Source of the DNA: Pectobacterium wasabiae CFBP 3304
GTDB taxonomy: Bacteria > Pseudomonadota > Gammaproteobacteria > Enterobacterales > Enterobacteriaceae
Assembly (NCBI RefSeq): GCF_001742185.1
Contig: NZ_CP015750.1
Coordinates: 4,216,001 to 4,280,000 of the forward strand
DNA: 64,000 nucleotides
Direction: 5' to 3'
The notes beneath the pieces were generated by a model, which searched no databases, had not been told where the DNA came from, and saw only the letters and a list, made by a program, of their open reading frames with translations. Below, piece after piece: positions 31,609-53,893 of this stretch. Each line of letters opens with the position of its first letter. Within the stretch, counting starts at the first letter, position 1. Position numbers and translations under genes: made by a program.

Positions 31609-32700
31609 ATGGGATTCAAATGCGGTATCGTTGGGCTGCCTAACGTCGGTAAATCCACTCTGTTCAATGCGTTGACCAAAGCCGGCATCGAAGCGGCCAA
31701 CTTCCCGTTTTGTACCATCGAGCCGAACACTGGCGTAGTACCGATGCCCGATCCACGTCTGGACAAACTAGCTGAAATCGTTAAGCCCCAGCGTATCCTT
31801 CCTACCACTATGGAATTTGTTGATATCGCGGGTCTGGTAAAAGGTGCGTCCAAAGGTGAAGGATTGGGTAACCAGTTCCTGACCAACATCCGTGAAACGG
31901 AAGCTATCGGCCACGTTGTGCGCTGCTTTGAAAACGACAACATCATCCACGTCAATAATAAAGTTGATCCGGCTGATGACATCGAAGTCATCAACACTGA
32001 ACTGGCATTGTCTGACCTCGACACCTGCGAACGCGCTATTCATCGCGTGCAAAAAAGAGCCAAAGGTGGTGATAAAGATGCTAAAGCTGAGCTGGCCGCG
32101 CTGGAGAAATGCCTACCACAGTTAGAAAATGCTGGCATGCTGCGCTCGCTGGATTTAAGCGATGATGATAAGGCTGCTATCCGCTACCTGAGTTTCCTTA
32201 CGCTGAAACCAACGATGTACATCGCCAACGTTAACGAAGATGGCTTCGAGAATAACCCGTATCTCGATAAAGTCCGTGAAATCGCTGCTGCTGAGGGTTC
32301 TGTCGTCGTAGCCGTGTGTGCCGCCGTTGAATCAGACATTGCAGAACTGGATGATGCCGACCGTGAAGAATTTATGGCTGAGTTAGGTCTGGAAGAGCCC
32401 GGTTTGAACCGCGTTATTCGCGCCGGCTATGAACTGCTGAACCTGCAAACCTACTTCACCGCTGGCGTAAAAGAAGTTCGCGCATGGACAATCCCTGTCG
32501 GTGCTACTGCCCCACAGGCCGCGGGAAAAATTCACACCGATTTCGAAAAAGGCTTCATCCGCGCACAGACTATCGCCTATGACGACTTCATCACTTACAA
32601 AGGTGAACAAGGCGCGAAGGAAGCTGGAAAAATGCGTTCGGAAGGCAAAGAGTACATCGTAAAAGATGGCGATGTAATGAACTTCCTGTTCAACGTCTAA
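31609..32700 (+). CDS. ychF: YchF/OLA1-type ribosome-binding ATPase
   Basis: The 363-residue product has the P-loop [14 protein letters not shown] (residues 8-21), the G3 motif [10 protein letters not shown] and the NVNED variant of NKxD, which gives ATP preference over GTP. A coiled coil (about 140-190) and a C-terminal TGS domain follow, ending VMNFLFNV. It binds 70S ribosomes and is linked to stress response and catalase control. Its last codons and terminator are duplicated at 50682-50779, so this gene is the attachment site of an island. The coding frame is intact. Confidence 0.97.
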
Positions 32701-32785
32701 ATTGCTTCTGTTGCCTCATGCGATATCAGCGCATCGCATGAAGACTGACAAACCCCATAAAATCCACGCAGTTGCGTGGATTTTT
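32688..32785 (+). repeat. Left attachment site (attL) of the island, within the ychF end
   Basis: It starts at GTTCAACGTCTAA, the last codons of ychF, and ends in the T-run of the terminator. Compared with 50682-50779 I count about 13 mismatches in 98 bases and no gap. The mismatches suggest that one copy came with the island from another strain or species. Confidence 0.85.
32759..32785 (+). terminator. Terminator after ychF
   Basis: AAAATCCACGCA (32759-32770) pairs with TGCGTGGATTTT (32773-32784), followed by T. It lies in the duplicated attachment region. Confidence 0.93.
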
Positions 32786-32914: not shown

Positions 32915-33136
32915 ATGCTCACTGATACGCAATGCCGCACTGCTAAGCCGAAAGAAAAACTCTATCGACTCAATGACTTCAACGGCCTCTACCTCGAAGT
33001 GAAACCCAACGGAAAAAAGGCATGGCGCTATAGGTTTAAACTCAACGGCAAATCCAGCATGTTCGCGTTGGGTGAGTATCCAACGGTAAAACTCGCCGAA
33101 GCGCGGGAGAAATGTGAGCAAGCACGTAAGCAAGTT
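32915..33136 (+). pseudogene. P4-type tyrosine integrase, N-terminal fragment cut by an IS
   Basis: About 74 residues remain, from MLTDTQCRTAKPKEKLYRL through GLYLEVKPNGKKAWRYRF to LGEYPTVKLAEARE. This is the arm-type DNA-binding domain (DUF4102) of P4-like integrases. The reading frame then runs into the IS end at 33137. The catalytic domain (Arg, His, Tyr) is absent from the window: the DNA right of the IS encodes something else, so the IS insertion was accompanied by a deletion. Confidence 0.88.
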
Positions 33137-33144
33137 TGTAGTGG

Positions 33145-34313
<1,169 letters not shown>

Positions 34314-34385
34314 TGGAGCACCTGTGTTGTTCTGAGGTGAGCATATCACCTCTGTTCAGGTGGCCAAATTCATTAAACCACTACA

Positions 34386-34669
34386 ACCACTACAACGGGC
34401 GTTGGCCGACCAATATCAATATCATTAATGGGCATTTTTTCTGGATATACTCAGACATCAAAAACCTTCCTGAGATCTTCGTAGTTAAAGGGGTAATGGA
34501 TATTACTGGGTCAACACTCAGAACCCCACCGTCAGATCTGACGGTGGATGGTGATTTGAAAATGCTGGGCACTCGGACTCGGGCGACTCACCTGCCAGAG
34601 CGGATGACGCTGGGGGGAAAATTAAATCTTTCGTTTTCAAGGCTCTCTGGAATCAGCTCCATGACATAA
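34386..34669 (+). pseudogene. Remnant of an LPxxLTVxGxLxL repeat protein gene
   Basis: This frame continues out of the IS and ends at a stop at 34667-34669. Three copies of a loose 20-residue repeat are seen: LPEIFVVKGVMDITGSTL, PSDLTVDGDLKMLGTRT and LPERMTLGGKLNLSFSRL. Such beta-solenoid-like repeats occur in proteins carried by phages and islands. No start or upstream part exists because the IS cuts it. It may be the tail of a gene lost when the integrase was truncated. Confidence 0.5.
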
Positions 34670-34765: not shown

Positions 34766-37426
34766 TTACTGTGGCAAAAAAGTTGCTGTATGTTGCCATA
34801 CTACTTGCTCATAGGGTAAATTCAACCCAGGAATAAAGAGATCTAATGCGGCCTCAGCACGCTTTATATCCCTCTCAAAATTAACATGGAATGCACTGTC
34901 AAGCTTAATCACCGTCGAACCTTTAGGTAGGTTGTCATATATAAAAGCCAGTTTATTGACTAACTCAGCGTTGACCAAAATTTGAATATTATCTTCCAGT
35001 ACCACTCCAACAACTGAAAATGATTGTACATTACTATCGCCAGTAATCTGGTCTCTCAATGTGTAAATCAGTAAAGCTGAGGAAATACCCCTTGCTACTG
35101 CCGTAGAGGCGTTAAATTTCTCAGCCTGATTAATAGCATTATTAATAATCACATGCCCTATCCCAAGCACTTCTAACGATTTCTCTGTAGGAACACGTTC
35201 AAAAGTCATATTGTTATATTTCTTCTTGATACCAAACTGTGTGATCCAGTCTTTGGGAGTGACAAAGCTAAGAACACCCTTATCATTGTCCAGACGGTGT
35301 CCATTCAATTTCAGCATGTTCTCGAGGAAACCATACATATGGATAAGATCAAGCTTCGGAACCTCATCTAAGTTCTGATACTCGAACTTATCCGCATGGC
35401 CTACAAGACCTTTAACCACGCTGACGGCTGACTGACCACCGAAGGTCCCTGCTCTAGAATCGAACCACGTATTTAGAGTTTCTGGCTTTTGTGTCAGGCC
35501 ATCAGCAAAAAGTGAATTGAAAAAAACTTTATCACTCATCCCAAGAATAAGCTGCAACAGATCTTCCGGTTCCTCCATCGCGTCGCCCAAAGAACGCATG
35601 ACTGTGGTTATTTTGCTGTTTAACAAGTCCCATATTCTGGACTCTACAGTATCGGGGTTGCGTAAAGTAATAACTTCAACCTGATTTTTTTGACCATAGC
35701 GGTTGAGTCGCCCTACACGCTGGTGAAGACGCATCGGATTCCACGGCAGATCAACATGAATCATGGAATAACAGTTGTCCTGCAAATCAATACCTTCACC
35801 ACCGGCTTCAGTACAAACAATAAAGCGTACCTGCCCGCTTTTAAATTGCTCCGCAGCATGGTAGCGATCCATACTCCATGACGTTTTGACGCCCTGTTTA
35901 TTGTAAATCCCTTCCAGGCGTCCTTCGCCATTGATAAAGCTGACGCAACCATAGCCAAAGCGAGCATTCAGAGTATTAATTAGCAGGGCCTGTGTCGCTT
36001 TATATTCAGTAAAGAATACGACGGTGCGATTAAGAAACGTGTTTTCCAGCACATGAAGCAAGGTCTGGATTTTCGTTTCCGATTCCACATTCCCCGCAAG
36101 CGCCTGCAGCTCTTCAAGCATGGGCAGCTCATTTTGCATAAGTTGAACCGAAGCAGACATTTCAACATATTCGCTTTCAAGCGCAATGTAGGCATCATCG
36201 AGATCCGGGGCCTGAGAATCACTCATGATGGCATTCATTTCATCATTCAGCGCCTGCAGCTTTTTCTGATTTTCCCCGAGCCTGGCGATACGCCCATTTA
36301 TTGCGGCATAAATTGCCGCTACCGAACTTGCCGCCAGTTTCTGTATTGCCGTTAACACCAGTTGCACGGCCTGCTGGTTTGCAGAGCTTAGCGACGAAGC
36401 GTAGGCCTGCCCTGAAAGAATAAATCGTGTGAGCCGGTCATAGAATGACTGTTCAGCCTCAGAAAAATGATAGGTCTGTGAGGTCACGTTGACGGTCTTG
36501 AACAAACGCTCACCGTCCATATTCGTGACGGTTTGCTTATTATTGCGAATCACAACATCCCGAACATGATGCTGCTGAGTTTCAAATGGCTTATTCACGT
36601 CAAATAAGTCTGGACGTAAAAGCCTCAACAGAGCAAAGAAGCCGTAATTTTTCCCGCGATGGGGGGTAGCTGTGAAAAAAAGCCGTGAGGCGAACTTTCC
36701 GTGATCGATAAGCTTCTGCACAAATCGATAGCCCTGAGTCGCCCCCGAATCTTCTAGCGAGTTAAGGTGATGTGCTTCATCGATGATCAGCAAGTCCCAG
36801 TCGTCTGCTTTGAGCATTCGCTCGTGCCTGCCATTAATATCTTTTCGCAGTGTCGGCAATGAAGCGACCACCCAGGGATGCGTATTCCAGTAATCTGATC
36901 GCTCAGTATCAATTTCCGCGGAGTAGAGGGACAAACGAATATCAAACATCTGCCGCAAACGCTCCTGCCACTGCGGTACTAACGATGCAGGCGCTAAAAC
37001 CAACAGACGCTGCACACGCTTTTTAGCCAGCAGCGGCCAAAGGATTAGCCCCGCCTCAACGGTTTTCCCCAACCCTACGTCATCAGCAATCAGCTTTTGT
37101 ACCGGCCATTGCCGTAACACGCGGTGACATACCCATAACTGATGCGGCAGCAGGTTGATACGTGAAGTAGAGAACACCCCCCAACTATCATTGATGGAGC
37201 GGATCGCAAGCGCCTGACTGCGCGCCAGAACTTCACGCAGATCGTCATAATTTCCTTCTGCCAAAGCATCCTGAGCACTGCGCACCGGCTCCAGTTCGGA
37301 AAGTGGACGTTCTTCAAAACTCGACTCGAAACGAATGAGTGCAGTGTTTTCCCGCAAGAGTTCAATCGTCCCCAGCCCAAAGCGTTCATGTCGTACCTGC
37401 TGGCCCTGCTGAAAGATCATTTTCAT
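34766..37426 (-). CDS. SNF2/RapA-like DEAD/DEAH-box helicase, last gene of the island operon
   Basis: The 886-residue product opens with a small barrel-like N-domain (QQVRHERFGLGTIELL). The complete SF2/SNF2 helicase core follows: motif I ADDVGLGKTVEAG (about 114-126), Ia LAPASLVPQWQ, II DEAHH (216-220), III FFTATPHRGKN, then, after a helical insertion, V CTEAGGEGIDLQ and VI QRVGRLNRYGQ. A C-terminal region of about 250 residues is unassigned. The architecture resembles RapA and the SNF2-like DrmD of DISARM. It starts by an ATGA overlap with the giant ATPase gene, so the two are tightly coupled. It probably tracks along DNA or moves a protein on it; it has no nuclease motif that I can see. 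Confidence 0.9.
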   Translation of the reverse strand: MKMIFQQGQQVRHERFGLGTIELLRENTALIRFESSFEERPLSELEPVRSAQDALAEGNYDDLREVLARSQALAIRSINDSWGVFSTSRINLLPHQLWVCHRVLRQWPVQKLIADDVGLGKTVEAGLILWPLLAKKRVQRLLVLAPASLVPQWQERLRQMFDIRLSLYSAEIDTERSDYWNTHPWVVASLPTLRKDINGRHERMLKADDWDLLIIDEAHHLNSLEDSGATQGYRFVQKLIDHGKFASRLFFTATPHRGKNYGFFALLRLLRPDLFDVNKPFETQQHHVRDVVIRNNKQTVTNMDGERLFKTVNVTSQTYHFSEAEQSFYDRLTRFILSGQAYASSLSSANQQAVQLVLTAIQKLAASSVAAIYAAINGRIARLGENQKKLQALNDEMNAIMSDSQAPDLDDAYIALESEYVEMSASVQLMQNELPMLEELQALAGNVESETKIQTLLHVLENTFLNRTVVFFTEYKATQALLINTLNARFGYGCVSFINGEGRLEGIYNKQGVKTSWSMDRYHAAEQFKSGQVRFIVCTEAGGEGIDLQDNCYSMIHVDLPWNPMRLHQRVGRLNRYGQKNQVEVITLRNPDTVESRIWDLLNSKITTVMRSLGDAMEEPEDLLQLILGMSDKVFFNSLFADGLTQKPETLNTWFDSRAGTFGGQSAVSVVKGLVGHADKFEYQNLDEVPKLDLIHMYGFLENMLKLNGHRLDNDKGVLSFVTPKDWITQFGIKKKYNNMTFERVPTEKSLEVLGIGHVIINNAINQAEKFNASTAVARGISSALLIYTLRDQITGDSNVQSFSVVGVVLEDNIQILVNAELVNKLAFIYDNLPKGSTVIKLDSAFHVNFERDIKRAEAALDLFIPGLNLPYEQVVWQHTATFLPQ

Positions 37427-40400
37427 ACGTAATCCAGGGGATCCTGTCCAAATATCTCAATACGAAGTGAGCGTTTCCCTTCGCTGGTTAAAATGCGCAG
37501 CGGTATGTCGAAACAATGATTAAAGGTCGCATCTTCCTCACCGAGATGTTCGCGGAAAAACGTCCACAGCAGAAGCGAGTCACTGGCAGTGGATTGCTTA
37601 ACATCCATTTCGTCGAACTCCATCGCCAGTAACAGACGCCTGACGCGTTCCGGCGCAGAGAAACAATATCGATGAATGCTGGAATCGATAAATACGTTAT
37701 TACGCACCAATTCACGGAAGATGAAGTTCACCCCAGTACCCAGAGTTGCACGTAACTCCGGGACTACAGTTCCCACGCCCGTTCCCGAAAGATTGAAACT
37801 GGATGCCGGTCGCAGCAAATCCCCAATATCCTCAAGGAACGCTTCCGACATATCCAGTAGTTTGCGATAGGAATCTAAATGCTTTGAAAAACGATACAGA
37901 GGCAATATTTGCAGCCAGATACGGTAGGTATCTCCGTACAAAGAATCCTCCAGATAATTGTCCATCACATCCAGCCATTGCTGCGCTGCATCAGGGTTGA
38001 TAAAGGTTTCCCACCAGCCTTTGTCCTCAAAATACTCAATTGCGGCACTGTGTTGCTCTTCCTGAGTCCGCCCAATGGTCTGGCATGAGCCTAGATACAG
38101 GAGTTTCAATAACGCCAGGCGTGAACGCTGATCGTCAGAGGCATTTCTTAAAGCTTCCCAGTCAAACCAGCCTTCAGGGTAGAGCCGAGCATTGTATTTC
38201 ACCAACTCTTCCTGCTGGTTCCTCTCCCACCAGGTGTGTATTTTTTGTACGGCTTCACCTGGTGTCACCAACGGTTCGTATTCTTCCGGTGTCTCCCGAA
38301 TCTCGCGCTCCCATGCCTTTGTTCTGTCAATGTTAGTCAGTAACCGCCCCTGCAGGAGAGAGGCAATATCATTATTGCTCCAGTGCCAGTCTGCCGGGAA
38401 GGCGCCTGGGCGCAGCTTAAGTTCAAGCAACCAGTCCGGTGGTATCTCTTCCATCAGCATACCCGCCAGTTTCTCCCCTTCCAGTCCTTCAATCAGAAAA
38501 CGACAAAATGCCTGCCGCTTTTGATTATCAGCCGCCAGGCCTTTGCGCTTTGCCCATTTGACTAAATCCTCAAAAACATATCCCTGACTTCTGCGTTTGC
38601 AATAAACAATAAATTCACAGGCCTGCTTAGAATATGATGATGAAATGATGGCATCGGTAGGTGCAAACCCAGAGATCATCCGTTCATTTTTTTCGGCACA
38701 AGGAGTGTTACCGAGCAAAATTTGGCTAATCGGGCGTGTAGAGCCTGCTTGTGTTTGCACATGCAGGTTTATCAGCTGTTTTCTGAAAGCCTCAATTTTG
38801 TCCTGCCAGCCTGTCAGTTCACCCAGTCGCTTGTCGAACTCTTCGTTAAATACGACTGCCAGCTTTTCAGCATCCCGCGGTGACAGATGCTGGATATCAA
38901 CACCCTGTTTATCCGGCAACGACGAGCTTATTAATGATTCAAGCGACAGTTTACTTTCGACTTTAAGTTTGCTTCCCGTCGTGTCTGCCACCAGGCACTG
39001 TGCACTGTGCAATGCCTGAAACGCAGGGAGATGAATCAGTGAACTCGCCAGACGAGAAACCAGTTCATCCGCGCTACGCACTCTGTCGCTCCACGTTATC
39101 AGTCCGGCAGCCTGCTCTTTAAATCCGTTAGGCAGCGCGGGATATGAGCGATAGAAGCTCATGATGCCATTTTCGCTTTCGTAAAGCTGCTGTAGCAATT
39201 TTTCGTTTTCCATCGCGTTAATATCGTTACTAATGCCTGTAGACATCACGTCCCAGAAGCTTTCCCAGAACTGAGTATGGGTCAATTCAGGGCTCAGTTC
39301 CCACTCAACAACCAGCTCCTCCCAGTTATGCTCCGTTTCCCACCAAAGTAATTCCAGCAGCGAATGAACTTTTGCTCCCGCTTTCTGGATAATGCCCCGA
39401 TTACGGTCAGCTTCAATAGCCAACTGGCGTCGACCAATATCAACCTCAAATCCAGCGTTAATCAAAAAGCCCTGCCGGGTATCACTCATCAATGGCGACA
39501 AGTTCCACAATCGCGGAATATGAGTATCAAAACTTCTCAGGCCCCTACGCGTGACCTGGAAAACCAGATGGCAGCGCTCATCATCGATTTCAGTCTGGTA
39601 AACCACCACCCGCACTGGCGACTGAGCACCCTTGCCGTTAGGCAGCATAACCTTGCCCAATGACAGACCAGGAATACGTGCATACTGAACAGGCTCCCAG
39701 CGCCATTCATGCTCATCAATGACAATCTGGCACAAGTTACGTGCATAAAGACTTAGCAAACCTGCATACAGAGTAAAATCTTTTAACACCACTTCCGCTT
39801 GCATATGCTGGCGCAGTGGCAAATACACAAGAGTAGGTGACAGGCCATTTGTCGCGGCACTTTCAGTGAGTTGGTTTAGTTGTTTATAACTTTCAGCATC
39901 ACAGGATTCGGGCACAATTCCACCCGCTATTTTAGTCGCCAGCCGCCCCGACAATAGGTAAGGATGATCAGACACCAGCAGACAGCTTTTGAAGCCGAGA
40001 CCGAACTTGCCGGTAACGCCCTGCTCTTTATCCGACTGGTAAAGCGCCAGCATTTTTTTCAGATCGTTTTTGTAGCCATCATGTACATTCTCGACTTGCT
40101 CATTTTTCACGCTCTGAAAGCGGTTAATTTCTCTCCCCCAGTTGAAGAATGACAATCCGCCGTTTTGCTCTTTCACCATAAATTTCTGGTGTACCCGCTC
40201 ATGACGGGCATCGCTATCCAGCTTGAACAACTCTTCTACTGCATCATCGGCATTCTGGAACAGCTCAAAAGGAACGCTTGATGGCTGATACTGAGCATCC
40301 TCTATACGCTTTCTGACCGCCGTTAATATTTCAGCCTGCAGTTCAGGGCGATCCTGGATAGCATTTGCAATGTCATAGACAATTTCAGTGAGCCTCGAGC

Positions 40401-43400
40401 TGTGGAGCAACTTGCCGTCACTACTTTCAGCAAGAGAGTGAAGCTCACTCTCATAGGCTCTCATTAAAACGTTAAGCTGAGAGTTTTTAAGGCCCAGTGT
40501 TTTCAGGCGCTCAACAATGCTGTTCAGGATAGTGACGCGCGCGATATTCACATCCAACTGCTCGGCCTGCTCAAAGGATTGCCAGAGCGTGTCTAGCCTT
40601 GCCTTCTGCAGATAAATACCTTCCTGCAGCCAGCTGGTGCTGCGTTTCAGAATCGCCAAAAGTTGCTGAGGCGTATACTGGTCTGGGGAAAATCGGCGAA
40701 TGAAGATTTGCGGTGCCTGACCGGTATAAAAAGCGTAGCCGTGCTGACCCACAAAGATCGTATCCAGGTCAGTTGCCAGCGCCACGGTCAAACGTTCCTG
40801 GAACAGAGAATGAACCTGCAACGTGTTTTCTTCGTAAACCTTCACGGCAAAGGCATATTTCTCAATGCACTGTAAGAGCGTTAACTCTGCAAAGTGAGCG
40901 TCATGGTTAGTTAAGGGTTTGCTGTCTTGCGACAGTTCATTCACGAACAGGGCATAACTTTGCAACCCCAGGTAGCTCTCACATAGCTTATGAACCTTAC
41001 GATTCCCCGCCAGCAAAGCCAGCAGTGCAGCAATTGCCTTACGTGGAACCCAGCGTTCCCAGGGCGCAAAGTATTCCCTTAAGACATTGGCAGAATGCTC
41101 AACATGACTGAGATGCCCTTCGGACTCAGTACTGTCTACCGACAAGTCATTAGCCTGCAGCCAAGGGGACAAATACGCCCAGTCGTCGTCATGTAGGACA
41201 GCACTACGTTCTGCTCCCGTTACGCCATAACAGAGATTGGTGGCTAACGCCCAGGTATCAGCAGCCGTTCTGAGCGGGATTGAACGCAGTACGCTGGCGG
41301 GATCTGAATGGGTATGACACAGCGTGCTTAACAGTGCTTTACGCAATTCACCACTTTGGGTTGGATTCATGCTGTCAACGAGATGCCGGTAGCTAGCAAC
41401 TATCTTGTCTGTAACCGGATGCGAAAAACTCAGCGCATTGATAGCCTCATTACCCTCAAGCGACTCAGCACCTTTGAGACACTCAATTAAGAGCAACCAA
41501 CCGTCAAAGCTCTCAAACGCGTACGACCTGTCACTGGCCTGAAGAATAATCGTATCAGTGAGACGTAAGCTGCTACCGATTGCATAAAGTGGAAGTGTAC
41601 CTGCTACAGTGAGCGCCTTGTAAAACGCAGCCTTGCCTCGCACGACCAATGAACTCAGCGCACAGTTAGCCTCATCTGGGAGAGCAATATCCTCAAGCAG
41701 AGCGATGAGCGGCGTCGCTTCTGTCAGCTTCGCGATCTCCGGATAGTCTGCCGCGCTAATATCCAGAATATTTTCTGGTGCCATCGCCACACCGCGGTGC
41801 AATAGCCATTTTTGGCGGCGCAGGTTATTGAATGCTCTCTCTGAAGACAAATCATTCGTCGGTTGCATTAACAATTGCAGGATAAAGTCGCAGTAACGTT
41901 CCGGGTTCGGCCCGGATAAAGCCAGCATGACCGCATGTTCGGCGTTCACCATTGTCAGATATTTGCGCTGCTGATCCTGCATCTCTGGCTGACTGGCGGG
42001 TTGGATGAACGTCACGTTGTCATTCAATTCAGTGGGCAGTTCAATGCGCCCCCCACGCAAGAAACAACGATCATCAAGGGATATATACCCCTCTTTGCCT
42101 TCCCTACGATGAAGAGCCATCTGCCGCCACATTGTTTCGCCCATAGAGCGGCCAATGTGCATCAGAACTTCTTCCGCATCTTCTGCAGATAAGTCATCAA
42201 ACTCCAGATATTCAAGGCTTTCTTTGAAGCGGTGGATCACATGATCCGGCGTTACACTATCAAGCCTAAGCGCCTTCTCGAATCCGGGAGTCAGTCCAAG
42301 ATTCTGCTCAATTTCTGGCGAAATAATAGTCCACTTGACCTGCTCCGAATCGGCATCAGAAAGAATTTTTGCCCATACGGGATGCGCTTTACCCGCCTTC
42401 CACAATTCAGCTTCACCAGTATCATCCGAATTACCGTGCATCAGATAGCGATAGACAAGCCGATCTCCGGCGCTAAATTTGTCCCCGTCCGCAGCCATTT
42501 TATTGAGTAAATCGATACGTTTTGTCGGCGAATCCAGACGAGGGTGAAGCTCAAGCAGATGGATAACCCCTTCGCTGTCACACTCCTTTGCTTCTGAATA
42601 TTCAGAACCACCAAATAAGGTCTGGTTAATATCATTGGTGATCAATACGATTTCTTTTTCAAGCAATGCCTGCTGCAACAATGCGCTTAAACCCATACCA
42701 AAATTAGCGCTCCCGCCAAGTTTGAATATCCTTCGCTTTTGTTTTAGTTCAAGCAAGTGACAGCGCGTCTCCAGGTAAGATATCCCCGTTGGCTGTGAAA
42801 CCTTAAAGACCTTCAAGGTATCAAACCGACGGTATAGCTCCTGACGATCGGGAGATGAGAGCTTGCCAATAAAATCCCGCACCAATTTTTCAAAGTTATC
42901 GCTGGCAGAAGCCTGTTTCTGCATCGCTTGCAGCAGGCTGCCAACCGTCTCCCAATTCAGAGATGCGCTGGCAGGTTCTTTACTGTTATCGAGAAAAGCA
43001 GGAACCAACAACCTATCCATAGCGGTACGCCCAAGCGTTTCCCACAGGGCCTGCTCCTGACGGTCAATGGCAATCCTGTAACGCCAGGTCGGACGAATGA
43101 ACGCCATCAATTCTCCGATCGCCGCCTGGTTACGTGAGAGCTCAACCAGCGGCACGCTAAATAACGTTTTTCTGAGCAATGCAATCAGGTCAAGCACAAA
43201 GCTGTCTGACTGAATCGGCAGTTCTTTCAGCAATTGATTGAGATAATTTGTAAGCTTTAAGCTAGTGAACACCATTTCGGGTACGCTATGCAGCAACACC
43301 TGAATCTCCGACAACTGCCACTTACTTTTAAATTCGTTGTAGATATTCTGCTGCGTTTCATCGATAAATCGGTGCGTTACACCCAGACTTTCCAGAGCGG

Positions 43401-44931
43401 GCAGCACTTCCCAGGGGCGATGCGCTTCACCTGAAGGTGTGGCAGGCAATCGACGAACGGGAGTGTTCGCATCAACTAAACACCACTGACTTCCATCCCG
43501 CGTTAGTTCGCATACCCACAGATGGTACAACGTTACCCAGTGGAACCAGGCATTATTGTTGCGTAAAGCTCTACGCACACCATCCGAAATTGCCGCTTTT
43601 TCCGCATCCCTGGCGTGAATAAGCGACATAAGAGAGGCAAGCGCTTTCGGTAATAGCGGCAACGTTCCCTGAGTAGCAAGACAGCGGTTCCATTCCTGAA
43701 CCAGTTGTTCCTGGCCTGGAGAATCTGGGGCATTGAATAACGGCGTGGCGCTGGTGAGTGTAGCCAGCCCCTGGATACCCACTCGCCCGGCATCGATGAA
43801 AAAGTAACCGTGCAGAATAATTTGATACGAGTACTGACCAGAAATAGAGAATGTTTGTTTCTGCGCATGCTGCGCGGTGTCCTGCTCACCCAAAGGTAAA
43901 AACACCGCCCATTCCACCGCCAGCGTTGCCTCTCCTTCTGGTACTTTCTCCGCCAGCATCACCACAGCGGCATGAGGCAGCGCTTTATCCGCAGTCTTCT
44001 TACCTTCTCGTGAATAACTGAATGGCCAGGCGCGTTGTGATTTCAGGGCAGAAAACTCAGGAGCATTCAGCAAAACCTCATGCCCGACGTAGAATTTTTG
44101 CTGAGGGTCCGGCAATCCAGCACGCTGAACGGTAATGTGGCCTTGCCATTCCCCAGCACCATTAAGATTGGTAAATTGTGGGCGAGTTGCCTTTTCAGGC
44201 AGCGAGATATGTATTTGACGCTGATACCCCTGCCCTGTTTTCACGACCAGCTCAATGTCCTGCAAGGTTTTCATCAGCGGTAACAGGCTGGCGAGCTTAT
44301 CCCCGAGTCCCGGGTCTGAAATAAAATCAGGCACCTCATAACGATAGTCTTCGCCGACAATAATAAAGTTTTCATCATCCTGGCGCGCCTGATAGATACT
44401 CTCTGAACGCAGCGGAACCCAGACAACGAAATAATCATCACACGCATTTTGGGTAATTGCGCGGACTTCATCCTCAATACGAACTTTATCCTGCTCGCTC
44501 ACCTCGGCCCAAGAAGATCTGTAACTGTCCCAGGGGTTAAAAACGTCTGATTTGGCCGAAGCAGTATGCCAGTCAAAGGACTGGTAAAAAAATACTTCAC
44601 CGAGATGGAACAGGCTTTTCATACCGAGCCCAAATTTCCCCACCGCATTTTCATCACCCGGTTTAGTGCCAATGCCAATGGAGAGGATCCCCTCTACATC
44701 TTCGAGTGTCAGCGGCGCATTATTGATAAAGAAAAGCGCGGGATCGCCCAATAAAGGGTGATCTGCCCCAGCAATACCAGGGCTCCAGCCAAAGATTAAT
44801 GATGACGCTTGTGCGTCATCTGCGTTTTGCACAATTTCTTTCAGAACAGGGAAGCCATTTTTATAACGGTCTTTTAAATTCGCAGCGATAATCGCAATAT
44901 CGTTGAGCGGCGTGGAGTGCGCTTTAGCCAT
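37423..44931 (-). CDS. Giant protein with two sacsin/Hsp90-type (GHKL) ATP-binding modules
   Basis: The product has about 2,502 residues. The start at 44931 (MAKAHSTPLND) follows AGAGG by 6 bp; the frame is open 48 bp further up without a ribosome site. Module 1 (about residues 1-250) has the GHKL motifs LKEIVQNADDAQ, FFINNAPL and VGKFGLGMKSLFHLGE. Module 2 (about 1550-1750) repeats them as ELFQNADDAVEEL, LSFFNWG and VTGKFGLGFKSCLLVSD. NADDA is typical of sacsin-like proteins, whose N-terminus is Hsp90-like. The roughly 1,300 residues between the modules and 750 after them are helical with no known domain. No nuclease motif is evident. ATP-driven clamping with the coupled helicase is a reasonable guess, not shown. 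Confidence 0.88.
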   Translation of the reverse strand: MAKAHSTPLNDIAIIAANLKDRYKNGFPVLKEIVQNADDAQASSLIFGWSPGIAGADHPLLGDPALFFINNAPLTLEDVEGILSIGIGTKPGDENAVGKFGLGMKSLFHLGEVFFYQSFDWHTASAKSDVFNPWDSYRSSWAEVSEQDKVRIEDEVRAITQNACDDYFVVWVPLRSESIYQARQDDENFIIVGEDYRYEVPDFISDPGLGDKLASLLPLMKTLQDIELVVKTGQGYQRQIHISLPEKATRPQFTNLNGAGEWQGHITVQRAGLPDPQQKFYVGHEVLLNAPEFSALKSQRAWPFSYSREGKKTADKALPHAAVVMLAEKVPEGEATLAVEWAVFLPLGEQDTAQHAQKQTFSISGQYSYQIILHGYFFIDAGRVGIQGLATLTSATPLFNAPDSPGQEQLVQEWNRCLATQGTLPLLPKALASLMSLIHARDAEKAAISDGVRRALRNNNAWFHWVTLYHLWVCELTRDGSQWCLVDANTPVRRLPATPSGEAHRPWEVLPALESLGVTHRFIDETQQNIYNEFKSKWQLSEIQVLLHSVPEMVFTSLKLTNYLNQLLKELPIQSDSFVLDLIALLRKTLFSVPLVELSRNQAAIGELMAFIRPTWRYRIAIDRQEQALWETLGRTAMDRLLVPAFLDNSKEPASASLNWETVGSLLQAMQKQASASDNFEKLVRDFIGKLSSPDRQELYRRFDTLKVFKVSQPTGISYLETRCHLLELKQKRRIFKLGGSANFGMGLSALLQQALLEKEIVLITNDINQTLFGGSEYSEAKECDSEGVIHLLELHPRLDSPTKRIDLLNKMAADGDKFSAGDRLVYRYLMHGNSDDTGEAELWKAGKAHPVWAKILSDADSEQVKWTIISPEIEQNLGLTPGFEKALRLDSVTPDHVIHRFKESLEYLEFDDLSAEDAEEVLMHIGRSMGETMWRQMALHRREGKEGYISLDDRCFLRGGRIELPTELNDNVTFIQPASQPEMQDQQRKYLTMVNAEHAVMLALSGPNPERYCDFILQLLMQPTNDLSSERAFNNLRRQKWLLHRGVAMAPENILDISAADYPEIAKLTEATPLIALLEDIALPDEANCALSSLVVRGKAAFYKALTVAGTLPLYAIGSSLRLTDTIILQASDRSYAFESFDGWLLLIECLKGAESLEGNEAINALSFSHPVTDKIVASYRHLVDSMNPTQSGELRKALLSTLCHTHSDPASVLRSIPLRTAADTWALATNLCYGVTGAERSAVLHDDDWAYLSPWLQANDLSVDSTESEGHLSHVEHSANVLREYFAPWERWVPRKAIAALLALLAGNRKVHKLCESYLGLQSYALFVNELSQDSKPLTNHDAHFAELTLLQCIEKYAFAVKVYEENTLQVHSLFQERLTVALATDLDTIFVGQHGYAFYTGQAPQIFIRRFSPDQYTPQQLLAILKRSTSWLQEGIYLQKARLDTLWQSFEQAEQLDVNIARVTILNSIVERLKTLGLKNSQLNVLMRAYESELHSLAESSDGKLLHSSRLTEIVYDIANAIQDRPELQAEILTAVRKRIEDAQYQPSSVPFELFQNADDAVEELFKLDSDARHERVHQKFMVKEQNGGLSFFNWGREINRFQSVKNEQVENVHDGYKNDLKKMLALYQSDKEQGVTGKFGLGFKSCLLVSDHPYLLSGRLATKIAGGIVPESCDAESYKQLNQLTESAATNGLSPTLVYLPLRQHMQAEVVLKDFTLYAGLLSLYARNLCQIVIDEHEWRWEPVQYARIPGLSLGKVMLPNGKGAQSPVRVVVYQTEIDDERCHLVFQVTRRGLRSFDTHIPRLWNLSPLMSDTRQGFLINAGFEVDIGRRQLAIEADRNRGIIQKAGAKVHSLLELLWWETEHNWEELVVEWELSPELTHTQFWESFWDVMSTGISNDINAMENEKLLQQLYESENGIMSFYRSYPALPNGFKEQAAGLITWSDRVRSADELVSRLASSLIHLPAFQALHSAQCLVADTTGSKLKVESKLSLESLISSSLPDKQGVDIQHLSPRDAEKLAVVFNEEFDKRLGELTGWQDKIEAFRKQLINLHVQTQAGSTRPISQILLGNTPCAEKNERMISGFAPTDAIISSSYSKQACEFIVYCKRRSQGYVFEDLVKWAKRKGLAADNQKRQAFCRFLIEGLEGEKLAGMLMEEIPPDWLLELKLRPGAFPADWHWSNNDIASLLQGRLLTNIDRTKAWEREIRETPEEYEPLVTPGEAVQKIHTWWERNQQEELVKYNARLYPEGWFDWEALRNASDDQRSRLALLKLLYLGSCQTIGRTQEEQHSAAIEYFEDKGWWETFINPDAAQQWLDVMDNYLEDSLYGDTYRIWLQILPLYRFSKHLDSYRKLLDMSEAFLEDIGDLLRPASSFNLSGTGVGTVVPELRATLGTGVNFIFRELVRNNVFIDSSIHRYCFSAPERVRRLLLAMEFDEMDVKQSTASDSLLLWTFFREHLGEEDATFNHCFDIPLRILTSEGKRSLRIEIFGQDPLDYV

Positions 44932-44934
44932 CAT

Positions 44935-45128
44935 TAACCTCTGTGTGCAATTTACGCCCCTCGGTAGGACGTTAAACACTGCCAGCTCACTCCCTGTGAG
45001 CTGGCTGTCACTAGCAGAGCGCTAGCGTAAAAACAGGCTGGCGCGACTCTTCCTTGCGCGTCTCGATAGGGCTCTAACTGTGAAGAAATGACAAAAGACC
45101 TTTTCAGGCCTTTTGTCAGGGTGGGATT
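44935..45128 (-). other. Structured untranslated region before the giant ATPase gene
   Basis: Three hairpins lie here. One has stem GCCAGCTCAC (44981-44990) with GTGAGCTGGC (44996-45005), another is CTAGC/GCTAG just beside it (about 45012-45026), and a third is TGACAAAAG (45089-45097) with CTTTTGTCA (45110-45118). None has a strong T-run on the minus strand. They may act as an mRNA processing or attenuation site within the operon, or mark an old insertion scar. Confidence 0.5.
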
Positions 45129-45518
45129 TTACACTCGCCCATCCCAGTTTTTAAAATAGAGTTTTAATTTTTCGACGGTATGACACCATTTCGGCGCGGT
45201 AGGTTTACAGACGGTATTTTGATTACCGAAGAATCCGACCCCGTTAACCACCTCTTGTTCACTGAGAATTCCCAGCCATTTCTCTGGAACAAAATACTCT
45301 AACTTATCGAGGTCATCCGCATTTCGATGATATAGTTAGCTACACTCAAGCACATCCATCGTCCGCTTGATCTCCTCCCTGAAAAAGACGAGGATGAAAA
45401 ATCCGCCACTGTTCTTATTTGTCGGAGGATATTTAGCCATTTCATAAACAGCAATAAAAGAAATCCTCAATGCAATATCTGTTGGAAAAGATATTTTATA
45501 TGAAGAAGAGTTGTGCAC
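45129..45518 (-). pseudogene. Small island gene with an in-frame stop codon (about 129 codons)
   Basis: From a GTG at 45518 the frame reads 60 codons (VHNSSSYKISFPTDIALRI, ending TMDVLECS), then a TAA at 45336-45338. It continues in the same frame for 68 codons (LYHRNADDLDKLEYFVPEKW up to LKLYFKNWDGRV) to a stop at 45129-45131. The second half has convincing protein composition, so one nonsense mutation probably split a real gene. Neither half matches a family I know. It lies between the coiled-coil gene and the giant ATPase gene, in the same direction. Its upstream end has no clear ribosome site, so the true start may differ. Confidence 0.55.
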
Positions 45519-45527
45519 GCGGGTTCT

Positions 45528-46265
45528 TTATAGAAAGTACTTAACTATAAACAGTGCGGTCACGCTTATCAGGATAAGCGTATTCGCTATGGAGAATCCA
45601 GCGGCAAGCTTACCCCAGCGACTATTTGTCCGAAAATCTGCACGTTGTTCATCTTCTAAGGTGAGAAACTGTCGATGCAGCGACTTATTCTGTTCCGTAA
45701 GTGACGCCAGCGTCACGTTTTGCTCTTGCATTTCGGCCAGAGTAGCAGTGAACCGTTGTTTCTGAAGGACCTCCTGCTGCTGGTTTAACACTGCATTCTG
45801 TTCTGTCAACACGGAGTATTGCGCTTGGAGTTCAGCGCTCTGATGAAACAACTGTTCCTGGATCCGTTGCAGTTGCTCGCCTTGTTCCTTATGACGCTTA
45901 CTACTTAGTTGCTGGAGTATATCTTGCAGAGCAGCGGTGTCCGTTCGGTTCTGTGCCAAACTATTCAGCAAAGAACGATAATGTGTTTGGGCATCAGCTT
46001 TAGCATCATTCAGTTCACGAGTCTGTTCGCCAAGAGTGTCGGATATCGTATCAAGCAATCCGCTCACGTTTTTAAATTCAGCGACAAATTTTCGGTCGAG
46101 ATTAAAGAGTTTGTCATTACTGTCGTCAATACTCTTCTTCTGCACACCCAGTTCACGTCGCAAATGCTCTAAAAACAGCTCCTGCACCAGTTGGTCCAGT
46201 AACTGCTCATCGCTGGACACTTCCGCGACAGCAAGATTTTTATTCAACTTTAGTGCTCTCCTCAT
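45528..46265 (-). CDS. Coiled-coil protein with a C-terminal membrane anchor
   Basis: The 245-residue product is almost wholly helical. Residues about 75-205 form a long Gln/Leu-rich coiled coil (for example LQRIQEQLFHQSAELQAQY, and NAVLNQQQEVLQKQ). One hydrophobic helix at about 222-243 (FSIANTLILISVTALFIV) ends with the short tail KYFL, so it is tail-anchored with the coil in the cytoplasm. No family is recognised. It overlaps the end of the second GTPase gene by 26 bases. A TTG start 15 bases downstream, behind GAGGAG, is an alternative. It may link the GTPases to the inner membrane. Confidence 0.75.
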   Translation of the reverse strand: MRRALKLNKNLAVAEVSSDEQLLDQLVQELFLEHLRRELGVQKKSIDDSNDKLFNLDRKFVAEFKNVSGLLDTISDTLGEQTRELNDAKADAQTHYRSLLNSLAQNRTDTAALQDILQQLSSKRHKEQGEQLQRIQEQLFHQSAELQAQYSVLTEQNAVLNQQQEVLQKQRFTATLAEMQEQNVTLASLTEQNKSLHRQFLTLEDEQRADFRTNSRWGKLAAGFSIANTLILISVTALFIVKYFL

Positions 46266-48117
46266 CTAAGGACTTTACGTAGTCAAAATCATTCTTTAAC
46301 GCTCTATACATCAGCACCCAAGCGAGACGCTCGCTGCGTGTAATATTCGGTTTTTTAGCGTTGCATTCGATTTCACGCGCTCGAGTATTTTTCGCCGAAA
46401 CAATGACTTTCGAAAAGTTTTTACTCTCTTTATATCTCTGAAAATAAAGAGTTAACGATACGCCTAACTCCTGCTTGATCTGGAAGAGTCTTGACTGCGT
46501 GTGCACCATTTTTTTCGACAATTGTTCAACGATACGCACCAGTCGGCACGCTGCCCGCTCGTTTTTGGCTATCTTATTGTTCAAGGCGCGCTCTTCGGCA
46601 CCAAACTTAACCTTGATTCGTTCGTGGAAAATATACGTTAAGCAGTTTGCGTCTTTAAAGCCTGCCTCTTCTATCTCATACTGATCATTCTGACGTGTTT
46701 TCTCTCGAAAATAGGTCTCAAACAAGTAGCCGTTTAGTCTTTTTAAGACCCGCTCTAGATTGGGCATCTCCGGTACTCTTTCAAGTGGAAGCTGGTAGAT
46801 TTCCAGCAGATCGTTCCAGCGTTTGGTATTTGTTTCACGAGATGCATAAATTTGAGACTTAAGATAACCGAGAGATGATTGCGAAATTATTTGAAACGCA
46901 TTCGAATGTTCACGAAAATCTGTACTCAACGCGTCCTCACGTTTTTGTAATAGTGCTTGCAGCTTTACTTGTAACCTCAGGTGATTATCTCTATTACTGC
47001 TGACCCGTTTCTCGTACATATCAACATATTCCCCCAGCCGAGAGAGCTGTTTTTGCAGCAATGCGTTTTCCGTCTCGTAAAGCTCTTTTTCGACAGCTAT
47101 CTGCTGTTTAATGATATGTGGCAGCGCGTATCCCGAACGTAAGCGTGATAATGGGTTCGATGCCTGGTGCAGAGAGTCGAGTAAATCTTGCAATACATCT
47201 CGCCGCAAATCACGGCACTGGCGGGCAAACTCGTCATCTTTGGCATTGATTGCCAGCCAAGAATGACCGCACTCCACGGGGTAAATCAGTTCACTGATGC
47301 TTTCAGGCAAGCCCAGATCCATGGTATTAATCTGTTGAAGCAAAAATATCCGCATTGCTTTTTTATCAAACCGTTTTTGTTTGATAAAACGCTGGAGTGT
47401 GGCATCTGAATAAGCACGGGTCAGTACAATCTTGTAGCGGTGGCGTTGCCAGTGCCAGTCGTTCAGCAGAGCATTGTCTAACTCTTCCGGCTTAAGGAAG
47501 GCCAACGCATCAGCCTTGCCGGTCAGCAGTACCACATCGGCAGAAGCAAGATATCGGCTGGCAAGCATGTTGACATAATACTGCTCGTTGGCGTTGGTTG
47601 AGTGAGTTCCAGGTAAATCACGGATCAGCAACTGGGCACTGCTCTGTAACTTCGGATCAAAAAAACGGCGCGGCAGGAAAACATCCACACTATCGAATTC
47701 ACGCTCGCCCTGCTCCACAGCCTGACGAAAATCTGCAAAAATGACTTTCGCCTCCTTGTCACTAAACCGAGTTGCACCGTACTCCCTATGGCTGAAATAC
47801 CAGAAGTCATCTTTCGCCATGCGATAGCGATAGGTGCGAGCCGTGGACATTGTGCCCAGCCCCTGCTCGCCGCGTAGCAAAGTATTGAGCTCGGTGAAGC
47901 AGTCATCACGAATACCCAGCAGGGTCAGGATTAATGAGGTTTTACCTACTTGGGCCGGACCGTACAGGATCACTGAAACCTGCCTATTGGCATTGTCTGC
48001 CGACTGGATCAACCTCTGTGCGTCAAATTTTTGTAGAAACGTGACAAAACTCTCTTCCGCCCACAGATAACGCTCCTGGCAAAGATCAGCCCAGGATTTT
48101 TCGGAAGTGAGTTTCAT
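46240..48117 (-). CDS. Dynamin-like large GTPase (second of a pair)
   Basis: The 625-residue product starts at 48117 (MKLTSEKSWADL), with AAAGGAAG upstream; a longer frame lies inside the previous gene. G1 is LYGPAQVGKTSL (52-62), a switch-1 Thr lies near STARTYRY (about 91-98), G3 is IRDLPGT (166-171) and a G4-like motif is LLTGKADAL (197-205). The C-terminal two thirds are long helices and coiled coils (MYEKRVSSNRDNHLRLQVKL), as in the stalk of dynamin-like proteins. No membrane helix is seen, but the partner upstream has one. Its start overlaps the first GTPase gene by 32 bases, so the two are probably made as a pair. Confidence 0.82.
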   Translation of the reverse strand: MKLTSEKSWADLCQERYLWAEESFVTFLQKFDAQRLIQSADNANRQVSVILYGPAQVGKTSLILTLLGIRDDCFTELNTLLRGEQGLGTMSTARTYRYRMAKDDFWYFSHREYGATRFSDKEAKVIFADFRQAVEQGEREFDSVDVFLPRRFFDPKLQSSAQLLIRDLPGTHSTNANEQYYVNMLASRYLASADVVLLTGKADALAFLKPEELDNALLNDWHWQRHRYKIVLTRAYSDATLQRFIKQKRFDKKAMRIFLLQQINTMDLGLPESISELIYPVECGHSWLAINAKDDEFARQCRDLRRDVLQDLLDSLHQASNPLSRLRSGYALPHIIKQQIAVEKELYETENALLQKQLSRLGEYVDMYEKRVSSNRDNHLRLQVKLQALLQKREDALSTDFREHSNAFQIISQSSLGYLKSQIYASRETNTKRWNDLLEIYQLPLERVPEMPNLERVLKRLNGYLFETYFREKTRQNDQYEIEEAGFKDANCLTYIFHERIKVKFGAEERALNNKIAKNERAACRLVRIVEQLSKKMVHTQSRLFQIKQELGVSLTLYFQRYKESKNFSKVIVSAKNTRAREIECNAKKPNITRSERLAWVLMYRALKNDFDYVKSLDEESTKVE

Positions 48118-50173
48118 ACAATTTTGCTTCCTTTTGTGCGGCAACAAGATTTTTAATGGCAAGCGTCAAGGCGCTTCGATTTGCCAGGGCATCCGTTTCG
48201 CCAAATATTTGCTTCAGGTTATACGCAATATAATCACGCAATTCGCCAATCATCTCCTTATAATTGCCAATAACGGTCTGTTCGTTATGGAATGACAATT
48301 CCTCCATCACACGACGAATGTAATAAATCTGCGCTTTATCGCTGTCGCGAATAACTCCTGTTAGTTGATAGATGCCATAAGCCACGCTTGCTACCAATGC
48401 CGCTTTACCTACCAGCGCTAGCGGAGCGAATCCCCCCTCGGTATTTGGCGTGCTCTTACCGTCTACAGTTCCATCTGCCGCATCAGCACCCAAAAACGCC
48501 ATCATGGCTGTTTTAATAGGATGGTACTGTTCTCTGCTCGAAAAGAGCGCATCAAAAATTTGTTTAGGCTGGATCTCCTCTGCCAGTTGGGTTGTGCAGG
48601 CCGGGTCAAGATGCATTGCCAACCTAGTACGAGCGTTTTCCAGCATTAAAGCAGGCATAATCTCCAGCGCCGCAGCGAGTTTTTTAGGCGGCGGTGCTTG
48701 ATGAGCGCCGCCCGGCTTTTTGAGCAGTGTATACAAACCCGTCATCAGGTCAGGATCCATTATTGAGTACTCTGCTTGTTTATCCTGAACCAGATACCCC
48801 ATTCTCCCGACTGCGCTGCCCGGTAATAGTTGCTGATTTTCAACGACAGGCAATAGCCCCTTGGCACGCAGCACCCGGGTATTCACAGACGTCAGTGCGT
48901 CGAAATTATGTTCGTGAATACTGATGTTTTCGTACTGTCTATTCCAAGCATCTATAATACGTTGACTGCGCTCATCATCCACTTCTATGCCGCGAAACGA
49001 CAGTCGGCGGGCGAAAATTTTGAGGTTTTTTTGAAAACCTACCTCTTCTCTTTTATAGCTTTTTTCACAGTACTTAAGCGCATCAGTAAAGTGCTGACGG
49101 GTCTCCTTTTTGATCGCTTCACGTAATTTTTGCTCATGGGTGGAGGCTGATTCATCGAAAACGTCTAGGATCTCATCCACTATGGATTCGTGATGCTGCT
49201 GTGTATCCGCCAATATCTTCAGATTATTGATTATTTCGGCCACGTCTTCGCGGATAAGTCCCATGAAGTTATCTAGTGCAATTGCTTCAGATACCGCACT
49301 GCTGGTGAGCTTATTGATGACTGTGTCACGTAGTGCATCAATCCAGATGTCGTTATTACCAGAACCAGTAGCTACGATATCCTCTTTTTTCATCCCAACA
49401 TTGGGGAAAACACGTTCAGCGGCACTGGTTTTGAGCTGTTTGATTTCATGTTCTCCGAGCATCTCTGTTTTGCTGATGACCACCACTGGGCCGCGTTCCT
49501 TGAAGTTATCTCGCAAATCTTGCAGCACTGCGGATTTGCTGTCATTGGCTAAGAGAGAGGGATCGGTCACGAACATGACACCACGGGCGTTAACCAATAC
49601 GTGGCGCATCATATCCTGCCAGAGATAGTTTTTACTTGTGGCTACCTCATAGCCCGGCAACAGCGCCCAAGTCACTTGCTCATTGATGAACGAGTTTTTT
49701 TTACTGATCAGCAATTTAGGGTAGAGCAGTTTAAAGCCCGCTTTTTCATAACGACGAATACTGCTCCAATCGCGAAGCAGACTTTGAAGTTGCTCCCCAC
49801 CCTCGCCCTTTTGCGGAGCAATTTCGCCTGTTTTAAGGTTTAGGCACTGATAGACAACTTGTGGAAAATCGGAGGGATCGCCATCCACCTGTTCGATAAA
49901 AAGCGGTACCTGTTCGCCACGACCCGGATTGGCATCTAACCATTCATCATCAATACCAAGGATCGCTTTCGCCAAGGTTGTTTTACCTGCCCCTTGCATA
50001 CCTGCGATGGCGTAAATGGATTCTTGCTGCAAAAGTACTGTCAACTCCACCTGCCGCAGAACATCAGTAATGTGATCGACATTTTCTGTTTCTTCATTGT
50101 GCTCAATCGAGAGCTCCAGCGCAGTAAGTAACGCGCGACGAAGATTATGCAACGTATTGATATTAATTGACAT
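48086..50173 (-). CDS. Dynamin-like GTPase with a hydrophobic membrane segment (first gene of the island operon)
   Basis: The 695-residue product starts at 50173 (MSININTLHNL), where AGGAAGG lies 7 bp upstream; the longer frame has no ribosome site. The G1 loop is AIAGMQGAGKTTLAKA (55-70). A G3-type LLPGYE is at 171-176, and a G4-like VVISKTEML at 231-239. A long helical stalk follows, with one hydrophobic stretch at about 582-605 (FAPLALVGKAALVASVAYG) resembling the membrane-inserting paddle of bacterial dynamin-like proteins, then helices returning to the C-terminus. Bacterial dynamin pairs such as LeoA/LeoBC (Eleos defence) are the closest known idea, but I cannot assign it to them. The promoter must lie in 50174-50681. 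Confidence 0.82.
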   Translation of the reverse strand: MSININTLHNLRRALLTALELSIEHNEETENVDHITDVLRQVELTVLLQQESIYAIAGMQGAGKTTLAKAILGIDDEWLDANPGRGEQVPLFIEQVDGDPSDFPQVVYQCLNLKTGEIAPQKGEGGEQLQSLLRDWSSIRRYEKAGFKLLYPKLLISKKNSFINEQVTWALLPGYEVATSKNYLWQDMMRHVLVNARGVMFVTDPSLLANDSKSAVLQDLRDNFKERGPVVVISKTEMLGEHEIKQLKTSAAERVFPNVGMKKEDIVATGSGNNDIWIDALRDTVINKLTSSAVSEAIALDNFMGLIREDVAEIINNLKILADTQQHHESIVDEILDVFDESASTHEQKLREAIKKETRQHFTDALKYCEKSYKREEVGFQKNLKIFARRLSFRGIEVDDERSQRIIDAWNRQYENISIHEHNFDALTSVNTRVLRAKGLLPVVENQQLLPGSAVGRMGYLVQDKQAEYSIMDPDLMTGLYTLLKKPGGAHQAPPPKKLAAALEIMPALMLENARTRLAMHLDPACTTQLAEEIQPKQIFDALFSSREQYHPIKTAMMAFLGADAADGTVDGKSTPNTEGGFAPLALVGKAALVASVAYGIYQLTGVIRDSDKAQIYYIRRVMEELSFHNEQTVIGNYKEMIGELRDYIAYNLKQIFGETDALANRSALTLAIKNLVAAQKEAKLYETHFRKILG

Positions 50174-50681: not shown

Positions 50682-50779
50682 GTTCAACGTCTAAATAGCT
50701 TCTGTTGTCTCACGCGCTCTCACAGTATCGCATGAAGACTAACAAATCCTTTAAAATCCACGCAATTGCGTGGATTTTT
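50682..50779 (+). repeat. Right attachment site (attR): second copy of the ychF 3' end and terminator
   Basis: It begins GTTCAACGTCTAA, like the end of ychF, and ends with a terminator stem AAAATCCACGCA/TGCGTGGATTTT (50753-50778). Without a gene in front of it, this copy has no role of its own except as a recombination scar. Confidence 0.85.
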
Positions 50780-51282
50780 TTAAGCAATATCAGGATCAAA
50801 TCAATACCCAGAACAGGATATTTAAAACGCCATTCAACCAGGCAAAAGCGCAATTATGACAGACCGAGTTCCATCAGAGATATATCAGTCGCTGATTTAG
50901 CGTCAAAATGGCACATCAGCGAAAGGTGTTGTGCTGCACCAGCGGCTTCTGATCTCGCAATGGCATCACTGGTCATCCCCGATACTGCTATACAGTCAAT
51001 GTCTTAATCATGCAGGAAGCATGGAGGATATACCTATGCCGATTCAGGATATGGCTTGCAGATTCCTCTGCGGCGCCCTGAATCTCTTTCTTTCGGGTAG
51101 ATTCAGGAGATCAATGAGAACATTCCCAATACCTCAGATCTTATCTCGTCTGGCATTGAATATGAGTTTCCGGGAATAATTTCGCGAAAACGGAGAGAAA
51201 AAAAGCTGCTTTTTTCGGTTAAGCTGTATGCGTGTTTCAACATGATCGATAAGTCTGACCAATGTTCCAGGAAACGACCCGA
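50780..51282. other. Gap between the island and the melR-type gene
   Basis: About 500 bp hold several short frames without ribosome sites or recognisable products. The stretch near 51105-51200 reads as a plausible 30-residue peptide (IQEINENIPNTSDLI) and may be a decayed gene end, but I could not match it. The right end must contain the promoter of the AraC-type gene. Confidence 0.4.
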
Positions 51283-52221: not shown

Positions 52222-52391
52222 CTATTTGAAAATAATCTTAGAATAATTATTAAATGAAATACATCAGTATAAAATAATAAATACCTCGCCCTATAGGGGC
52301 TATATAAAAATCACTGAGTCCTTGCGTTCTGAACTCTCAGGGTCAGGCTATCTGTAATAGATATTCAACTTTTAACTGTTTGGATGGAATT

Positions 52392-53858: not shown

Positions 53859-53893
53859 ATAACTTCTGGTTAATATTTACTATGGGAAACGAT

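Follow-up and report, generated by a model that had tools for sequence, protein, structure and literature searches.

The window analysed here, a stretch of 64,000 nucleotides from Pectobacterium wasabiae CFBP 3304, is part of a 5.04-Mb genome contained in one contig. Five long open reading frames (ORFs), all intact and all on the minus strand, run from 50173 down to 34766; we call them GTPA, GTPB, CC, SACS and SNF2, and refer to the first three as the trio and to the last two as the pair:

48086..50173, minus strand: GTPA, 695 aa, divergent dynamin-like protein, trio gene 1
46240..48117, minus strand: GTPB, 625 aa, dynamin-like GTPase, trio gene 2
45528..46265, minus strand: CC, 245 aa, probable coiled coil, trio gene 3
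37423..44979, minus strand: SACS, 2518 aa from a GTG, two sacsin/Hsp90-type (GHKL) ATPase domains, pair gene 1
34766..37426, minus strand: SNF2, 886 aa, RapA/BrxHII/DrmD-type SNF2 protein, pair gene 2

The 625 residues of GTPB are counted from the ATG of the database record P0093, the ORF itself opening at a TTG at 48162, and the start of SACS may lie about 15 codons further downstream, where the corresponding ORF of IMG/VR contig L058 opens. Full-length relatives are 85-86% (GTPA), 80% (GTPB), 91% (SACS) and 97% (SNF2) identical, and these relatives, together with the lengths of the ORFs, exclude chance ORFs. Our coordinates agree with the five intact same-strand genes of the initial annotation and with its overlaps of 32 (GTPA/GTPB), 26 (GTPB/CC) and 4 bases (SACS/SNF2). 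It had passed over the space between CC and SACS, which do not overlap and are separated by a 548-base gap (44980-45527), in which a pseudogene remnant is followed by a terminator-like hairpin. Weak Pfam matches to DUF1810, dynein heavy chain, COG6, V_ATPase_I, SesA and AAA_22 were rejected as noise.

The genes lie in an island bounded by a 98-bp direct repeat of the 3' end of a gene that we take, from its protein sequence, to be ychF:

32688..32785, plus strand: left attachment-site copy, the ychF 3' end plus the sequence after it
32915..33136, plus strand: N-terminal (arm-binding) fragment of a phage-type integrase, reaching up to the IS3 element
33137..34386, minus strand: IS3-family element adjoining the integrase fragment
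50682..50779, plus strand: right attachment-site copy, 87% identical to the left copy

The ORF at 32915-33247 matches Arm-DNA-bind_3 with 81.7 bits and runs into the IS3-family element at about 33137; the integrase fragment and the ychF-end repeat confirm the phage-type integration site that had been proposed. Repeated integration at ychF is indicated by two of five stretches from congeners, one of which (L054) has a longer integrase ORF directly after ychF and the other (L053) a second partial copy of the ychF end about 2.4 kb from ychF. All five congener stretches match the ychF side, and none matches the window right of 50792, so that no empty chromosomal site was found among them. DNA searches with the island gave no match in E. 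coli genomes or plasmids, and the IS3 element was the only match of a search that included the left end of the island. To the right of the island, at 51262-55075, lie an AraC-like ORF (identified by eye), a Na+/H+ antiporter and an aminotransferase.

Pfam, NCBIfam and PADLOC models weakly recognised GTPA and GTPB as P-loop proteins and gave only weak matches to CC. The AF2 model of GTPA, which is of moderate confidence (pLDDT 75.9, with residues 563-610 below 50), matches BDLP (2j69) with an E value of 1.1e-9, and the model of GTPB (pLDDT 83.7) matches BDLP at 2.3e-8 and LeoA (4aur) at 3.9e-5 in Foldseek. Both proteins show the combination expected of a bacterial dynamin, a dynamin-type GTPase domain with a helical neck or trunk; on these predicted structures GTPA and GTPB are dynamin-like proteins, each encoded by a single ORF, which bears out the two dynamin-like GTPases of the initial annotation. 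Their nucleotide-binding motifs are of two kinds. GTPB has a G1 (GPAQVGKT) and a G3 motif (DLPG) whose aspartate is kept in 32 of 33 aligned rows, the remaining one having E; GTPA has an intact G1 (GMQGAGKT), which is kept across its alignment, and a Leu in place of the G3 aspartate, which is missing in all 52 of 52 rows. GTPA also has a hydrophobic stretch starting at residue 583, and CC carries a single C-terminal hydrophobic segment (residues 223-241), a membrane helix at its end. The anchor of the proposed tail-anchored coiled coil therefore stands, while the coiled coil itself, suggested by the look of the sequence and by weak Pfam matches, remains probable. At a related locus (L013, 11990-12457) the third gene is far shorter (155 aa) and retains the C-terminal hydrophobic segment. 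GTPA homologues at three plasmid loci (L065, L066 and L067) are labelled 'sugar kinase' in public records, a label contradicted by the predicted dynamin fold of GTPA.

The pair encodes the giant double sacsin-type ATPase and the SNF2 helicase that had been described from the sequence: SACS has both N-boxes and both G-boxes intact, with the sacsin domain recognised in two stretches (NF047352, 104.5 bits against a cut-off of 50), and SNF2 has an intact Walker A, DEAH and motif VI. The median length of SACS relatives is 2514 aa among the 120 listed of the 429 found, and among the listed relatives of 2300-2700 aa two G-boxes are present in 107 of 111 and two N-boxes in 89 of 111 (strict pattern).

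The gap between the trio and the pair holds two features, the first of which carries a PDC (phage defence candidate) label:

45130..45368, minus strand: PDC-S11/NucS-like remnant, the last 79 codons of a 366-aa gene, with one internal stop
45089..45118, minus strand: terminator-like hairpin of 13 pairs, between the remnant and SACS

The remnant is identical at 62 of 79 positions (78%; tblastn E 4e-38), and the similarity to genome G281 stops at 45368, inside the PDC-S11 gene of that genome. The NucS-like gene is intact before SACS in two relatives, G281 and L058, and its reduction here to a stop-containing scrap is a likely reason for the earlier remark that no nuclease was visible. G281 and L058 each have a similar hairpin in the corresponding position, as judged by eye; by count, the one hairpin found against 0.8 expected in shuffled sequences is no more than chance. 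Promoter-like matches are also present and were given no weight. The most parsimonious account starts from an hsdRMS-PDC-S11-SACS-SNF2 island in which the trio took the place of the upstream part.

We then turn to the distribution of the two halves. Outside the window, GTPA and GTPB stand in tandem at 12 of 12 trio loci examined, all without SACS and without SNF2, their absence being scored by tblastn at 1e-8 over stretches of 16-22 kb (L002 has 2 kb upstream). These loci comprise three of three returned from named genomes (L002-L004), five of the eight GTPA matches in family genomes (L013-L017; the window itself was left out, as were G221 and G292, dropped because their matches cover the P-loop only) and four of the 11 GTPA-bearing plasmid records (L065-L068). 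Further homologues, from the searches with GTPA, GTPB and SACS, come from Yersinia and Vibrio. The order of the trio genes is conserved down to about 25% identity; CC was seen by sequence (tblastn at 1e-8) only at the three closest loci and is recognised elsewhere by position and architecture. In a sample of 295 family genomes, a convincing GTPA occurs in six (the window counted) and SACS with SNF2 in two, and only the genome of the window has both. Scans of viral contigs with GTPA and with the GTPB alignment found none, and one phage record has a 30% match to GTPB across 44% of the query. A defence-type neighbour is present at 10 of the 12 trio loci, a raw count of hand-chosen neighbours without a background rate that includes the near-copies L003/L004 and L065/L068:

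L002 (Buttiauxella): Mrr-like ORF directly upstream
L003 (Enterobacter): type I REase, HEC-06/Orf5-like, Mrr-like
L004 (Atlantibacter): type I REase, Mrr-like
L015: AbiH-like
L016: McrBC-type
L017: MkoC-like
L065: PDC-S26
L066: IetA-like
L067: E1-E2/JAB
L068: piece of PDC-S26

At L013 and L014 no defence match was found among the two and three ORFs scanned. We take the MkoC-like label to refer to Mokosh and the E1-E2/JAB genes to be CBASS-type.

For the pair, among eight SACS loci outside the window (G281, L058 and six of the seven plasmid records with SACS), SNF2 is present at six and the GTPases at none. In G281, the nearest relative for the pair, the SACS-SNF2 region, 91% identical at the DNA level to window positions 34767-45368 and without GTPases, follows hsdR-hsdM-hsdS and a gene for a 366-aa protein that matches PADLOC PDC-S11 with 549 bits and NucS_C weakly (19.3 bits against a cut-off of 24). 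L058 (also L032; IMGVR_UViG_2905060043_000008) carries GajA/GajB-like genes and hsdRMS-PDC-S11-SACS-SNF2 in a row, adjoining an integrase. Two Deinococcus plasmids have SACS-SNF2 with the 4-base overlap and no hsd genes annotated alongside, and because these plasmids have the pair without type I restriction or NucS-like genes, the pair is probably the functional unit. In Trichormus the pair lies about 5 kb from drmC, with drmA before it, and it is also found in Sphingomonas. SACS occurs without SNF2 in Haematobacter and Synechocystis, and these two of the eight loci indicate that the pairing is not obligatory. Four further IMG/VR contigs (L059-L062) have PDC-S11 and hsd genes without SACS-SNF2 in the available stretch: hsdM and hsdS in three of them, hsdR as well in L060, and part of hsdS in L062. 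Each of these four has an integrase ORF, merely 22-41% identical to the integrase of L032. Wider scans with SACS in 369 genomes of the class, with SNF2 in 349 genomes of the phylum (E<=1e-90) and with the GTPA profile in 345 genomes of the order each returned the window's own genome alone; the SNF2 and GTPA scans returned neither G281 nor the family-sample genomes with GTPA, whose membership in the samples is unstated, and their sensitivity is uncertain.

Each part of the locus has a likeness to a described system. TmtA of Tiamat and SACS both have a sacsin-type GHKL ATPase domain, but SACS is a protein of about 2,500 aa with two ATPase domains and a helicase partner, and we rejected the Tiamat label since the TmtA models cover only about 80-130 residues at either ATPase domain (at best 77 bits, residues 38-126). 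SNF2 resembles the helicases of DISARM and BREX and RapA, matching the PADLOC DrmD model PDLC02634 over its full length with 897 bits and BrxH models with 247 bits; it reaches, however, only 306.8 bits against the NCBIfam DrmD equivalog NF038317, whose cut-off is 610, and no drmA, drmB (which we take to be DUF1998) or drmC was found among the island ORFs of at least 200 aa. Within the genome, the DrmA model gives its highest score to the SNF2 gene and 89 bits to the runner-up; this model is unspecific, with matches in 13 of 14 control genomes as well. The DISARM label was rejected on account of the missed curated cut-off. The hsdRMS and PDC-S11 operons are linked to the pair as its upstream neighbours in two relatives and by the remnant in the window, where PDC-S11 is, in difference from these operons, shortened and stop-containing.

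The trio is similar to Eleos in that an island carries two tandem dynamin-like proteins and, separately, a membrane anchor element, and in the fold match of GTPB to LeoA. It differs in that the PADLOC LeoA models hit the P-loop only (27 and 32 residues, 17.8 and 14.7 bits), in that the dynamins of the trio are unsplit, whereas the second dynamin of Eleos is divided into LeoB and LeoC (PMC4159319, in its available text), and in that GTPA lacks the G3 aspartate and the third gene encodes a probable coiled coil whose membrane segment is C-terminal. DynA, BDLP and IniA share the dynamin fold with GTPA and GTPB; DynA is described as two dynamins fused into one protein (PMC4159319), whereas the trio consists of two separate genes and an anchor gene on mobile islands. 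A 'dynamins' label exists in DefenseFinder, as mentioned in the accessible part of PMC12595487. The tests speak against membership in Eleos, DISARM or Tiamat, the three systems of which the initial annotation had been reminded. In the consulted parts of other reports, BrxHII/RapA-type helicases with an N-terminal Tudor domain (PMC12839542) and a GHKL-ATPase Shedu protein of a different family from SACS (PMC12137116) are described, as are the DISARM-like ARMADA systems, in whose accessible text the terms sacsin, DrmD and GHKL are absent (PMC12458937). Neither module is described in the open-access literature searched; subscription journals were mostly outside this scope, and a description elsewhere is possible.

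Our data favour, with a probability of roughly 0.6, a model whereby a composite island has integrated at the 3' end of ychF and holds two independent cassettes, the trio and the pair, with the functions proposed below. Two cassettes are indicated by the 12 of 12 GTPase loci without SACS or SNF2, the eight of eight SACS loci without GTPases and the relic of a third gene at the junction. The single five-gene operon of the initial annotation, in which the ATPase and helicase would detect invading DNA while the dynamins worked at the membrane, agrees with the shared strand, the common island and the position of the trio directly before the pair; it is nevertheless very improbable, since no second locus with both halves was met among the 12 and eight loci, a pseudogene remnant sits between the halves, and the pair has different upstream neighbours in its two closest relatives. 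A lack of co-occurrence elsewhere was one of the refuting outcomes that the initial annotation had named, and on it the five-gene union fails in the loci examined. Sharing a strand, the five genes could still be transcribed or act together in this particular host. It is also rather unlikely that SACS-SNF2 is a non-working leftover of an hsdRMS and NucS-like restriction island whose partners are gone, leaving only the trio active. The gene order shared by G281 and L058, of which the window keeps only a C-terminal PDC-S11 scrap, is what such decay would leave, but both SACS and SNF2 have uninterrupted frames and keep their motifs, the pair is found without these partners on Deinococcus, Trichormus and Sphingomonas plasmids, and PDC-S11 and hsd genes likewise occur without the pair in the four IMG/VR contigs.

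The trio could instead be a membrane-maintenance or secretion module spread by islands for another benefit. LeoABC was originally described as aiding vesicle-linked secretion (PMC4159319, available text), two trio loci are without a defence match, and the DefenseFinder-predicted dynamins of the Pseudomonas element I55 were inactive against the phages tested (PMC12595487, in the part accessible); the defence-type neighbours at 10 of 12 loci and the location of four trio loci on plasmids argue the other way, and we consider this reading improbable, if less so than a defunct pair. The defence role first proposed for the locus is plausible from the neighbours of both cassettes, those of the trio and, for the pair, hsdRMS/PDC-S11, GajA/GajB-like genes, drmA/drmC and PDC-S68, and each module is likely, by genomic context, a candidate anti-phage system. 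More tentatively, and at somewhat less than even odds, the trio would represent a distinct, undescribed form of dynamin immunity that combines a normal GTPase, an obligate partner whose whole family has lost the G3 site and a dedicated tail-anchored protein keeping both at the membrane, and the pair a second undescribed system that extends from enterobacteria to Deinococcus and cyanobacteria.

For the two-cassette reading, we propose that GTPB is the working dynamin GTPase of the trio, that GTPA is its partner, whose G3 site is degenerate, and that CC holds the complex at the inner membrane through its C-terminal helix. Upon infection, both dynamins would assemble together at the membrane, remodelling or sealing it, and this change may alter phage release or cell survival, by analogy with Bacillus subtilis DynA, which is reported to delay lysis upon phage infection (PMC8844932, accessible part). 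If the modules defend, the three genes of the trio would form a compact model in which to study how phages are stopped by bacterial dynamins and why one partner loses the G3 aspartate, and the pair would make giant ATPases of the sacsin type tractable in bacteria; their human relative is mutated in a spastic ataxia (PMC3710099, available text). The interest of the locus lies in two uncharacterised modules side by side; it also illustrates that a composite island can pass for a new multi-gene system and that a helicase not belonging to DISARM can receive the DrmD label of PADLOC.

In the pair, SNF2 may translocate along double-stranded DNA in the manner of RapA, BrxHII and DrmD, and the double-sacsin SACS could serve as a clamp or chaperone that is gated by ATP and, together with SNF2, engages phage DNA or a phage complex. 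The two halves of SACS may work as separate chains, because SACS consists of two consecutive ORFs in Trichormus (L027, 11024-19071) and Sphingomonas (L029, 10527-17739). Next to the Sphingomonas pair a PDC-S68-type protein is likewise encoded by two ORFs (L029, 17858-21252), and on the Haematobacter plasmid (L030, 10836-21595) the SACS relative adjoins a gene for TmtA of Tiamat (794 bits) and an annotated RecB-like nuclease.
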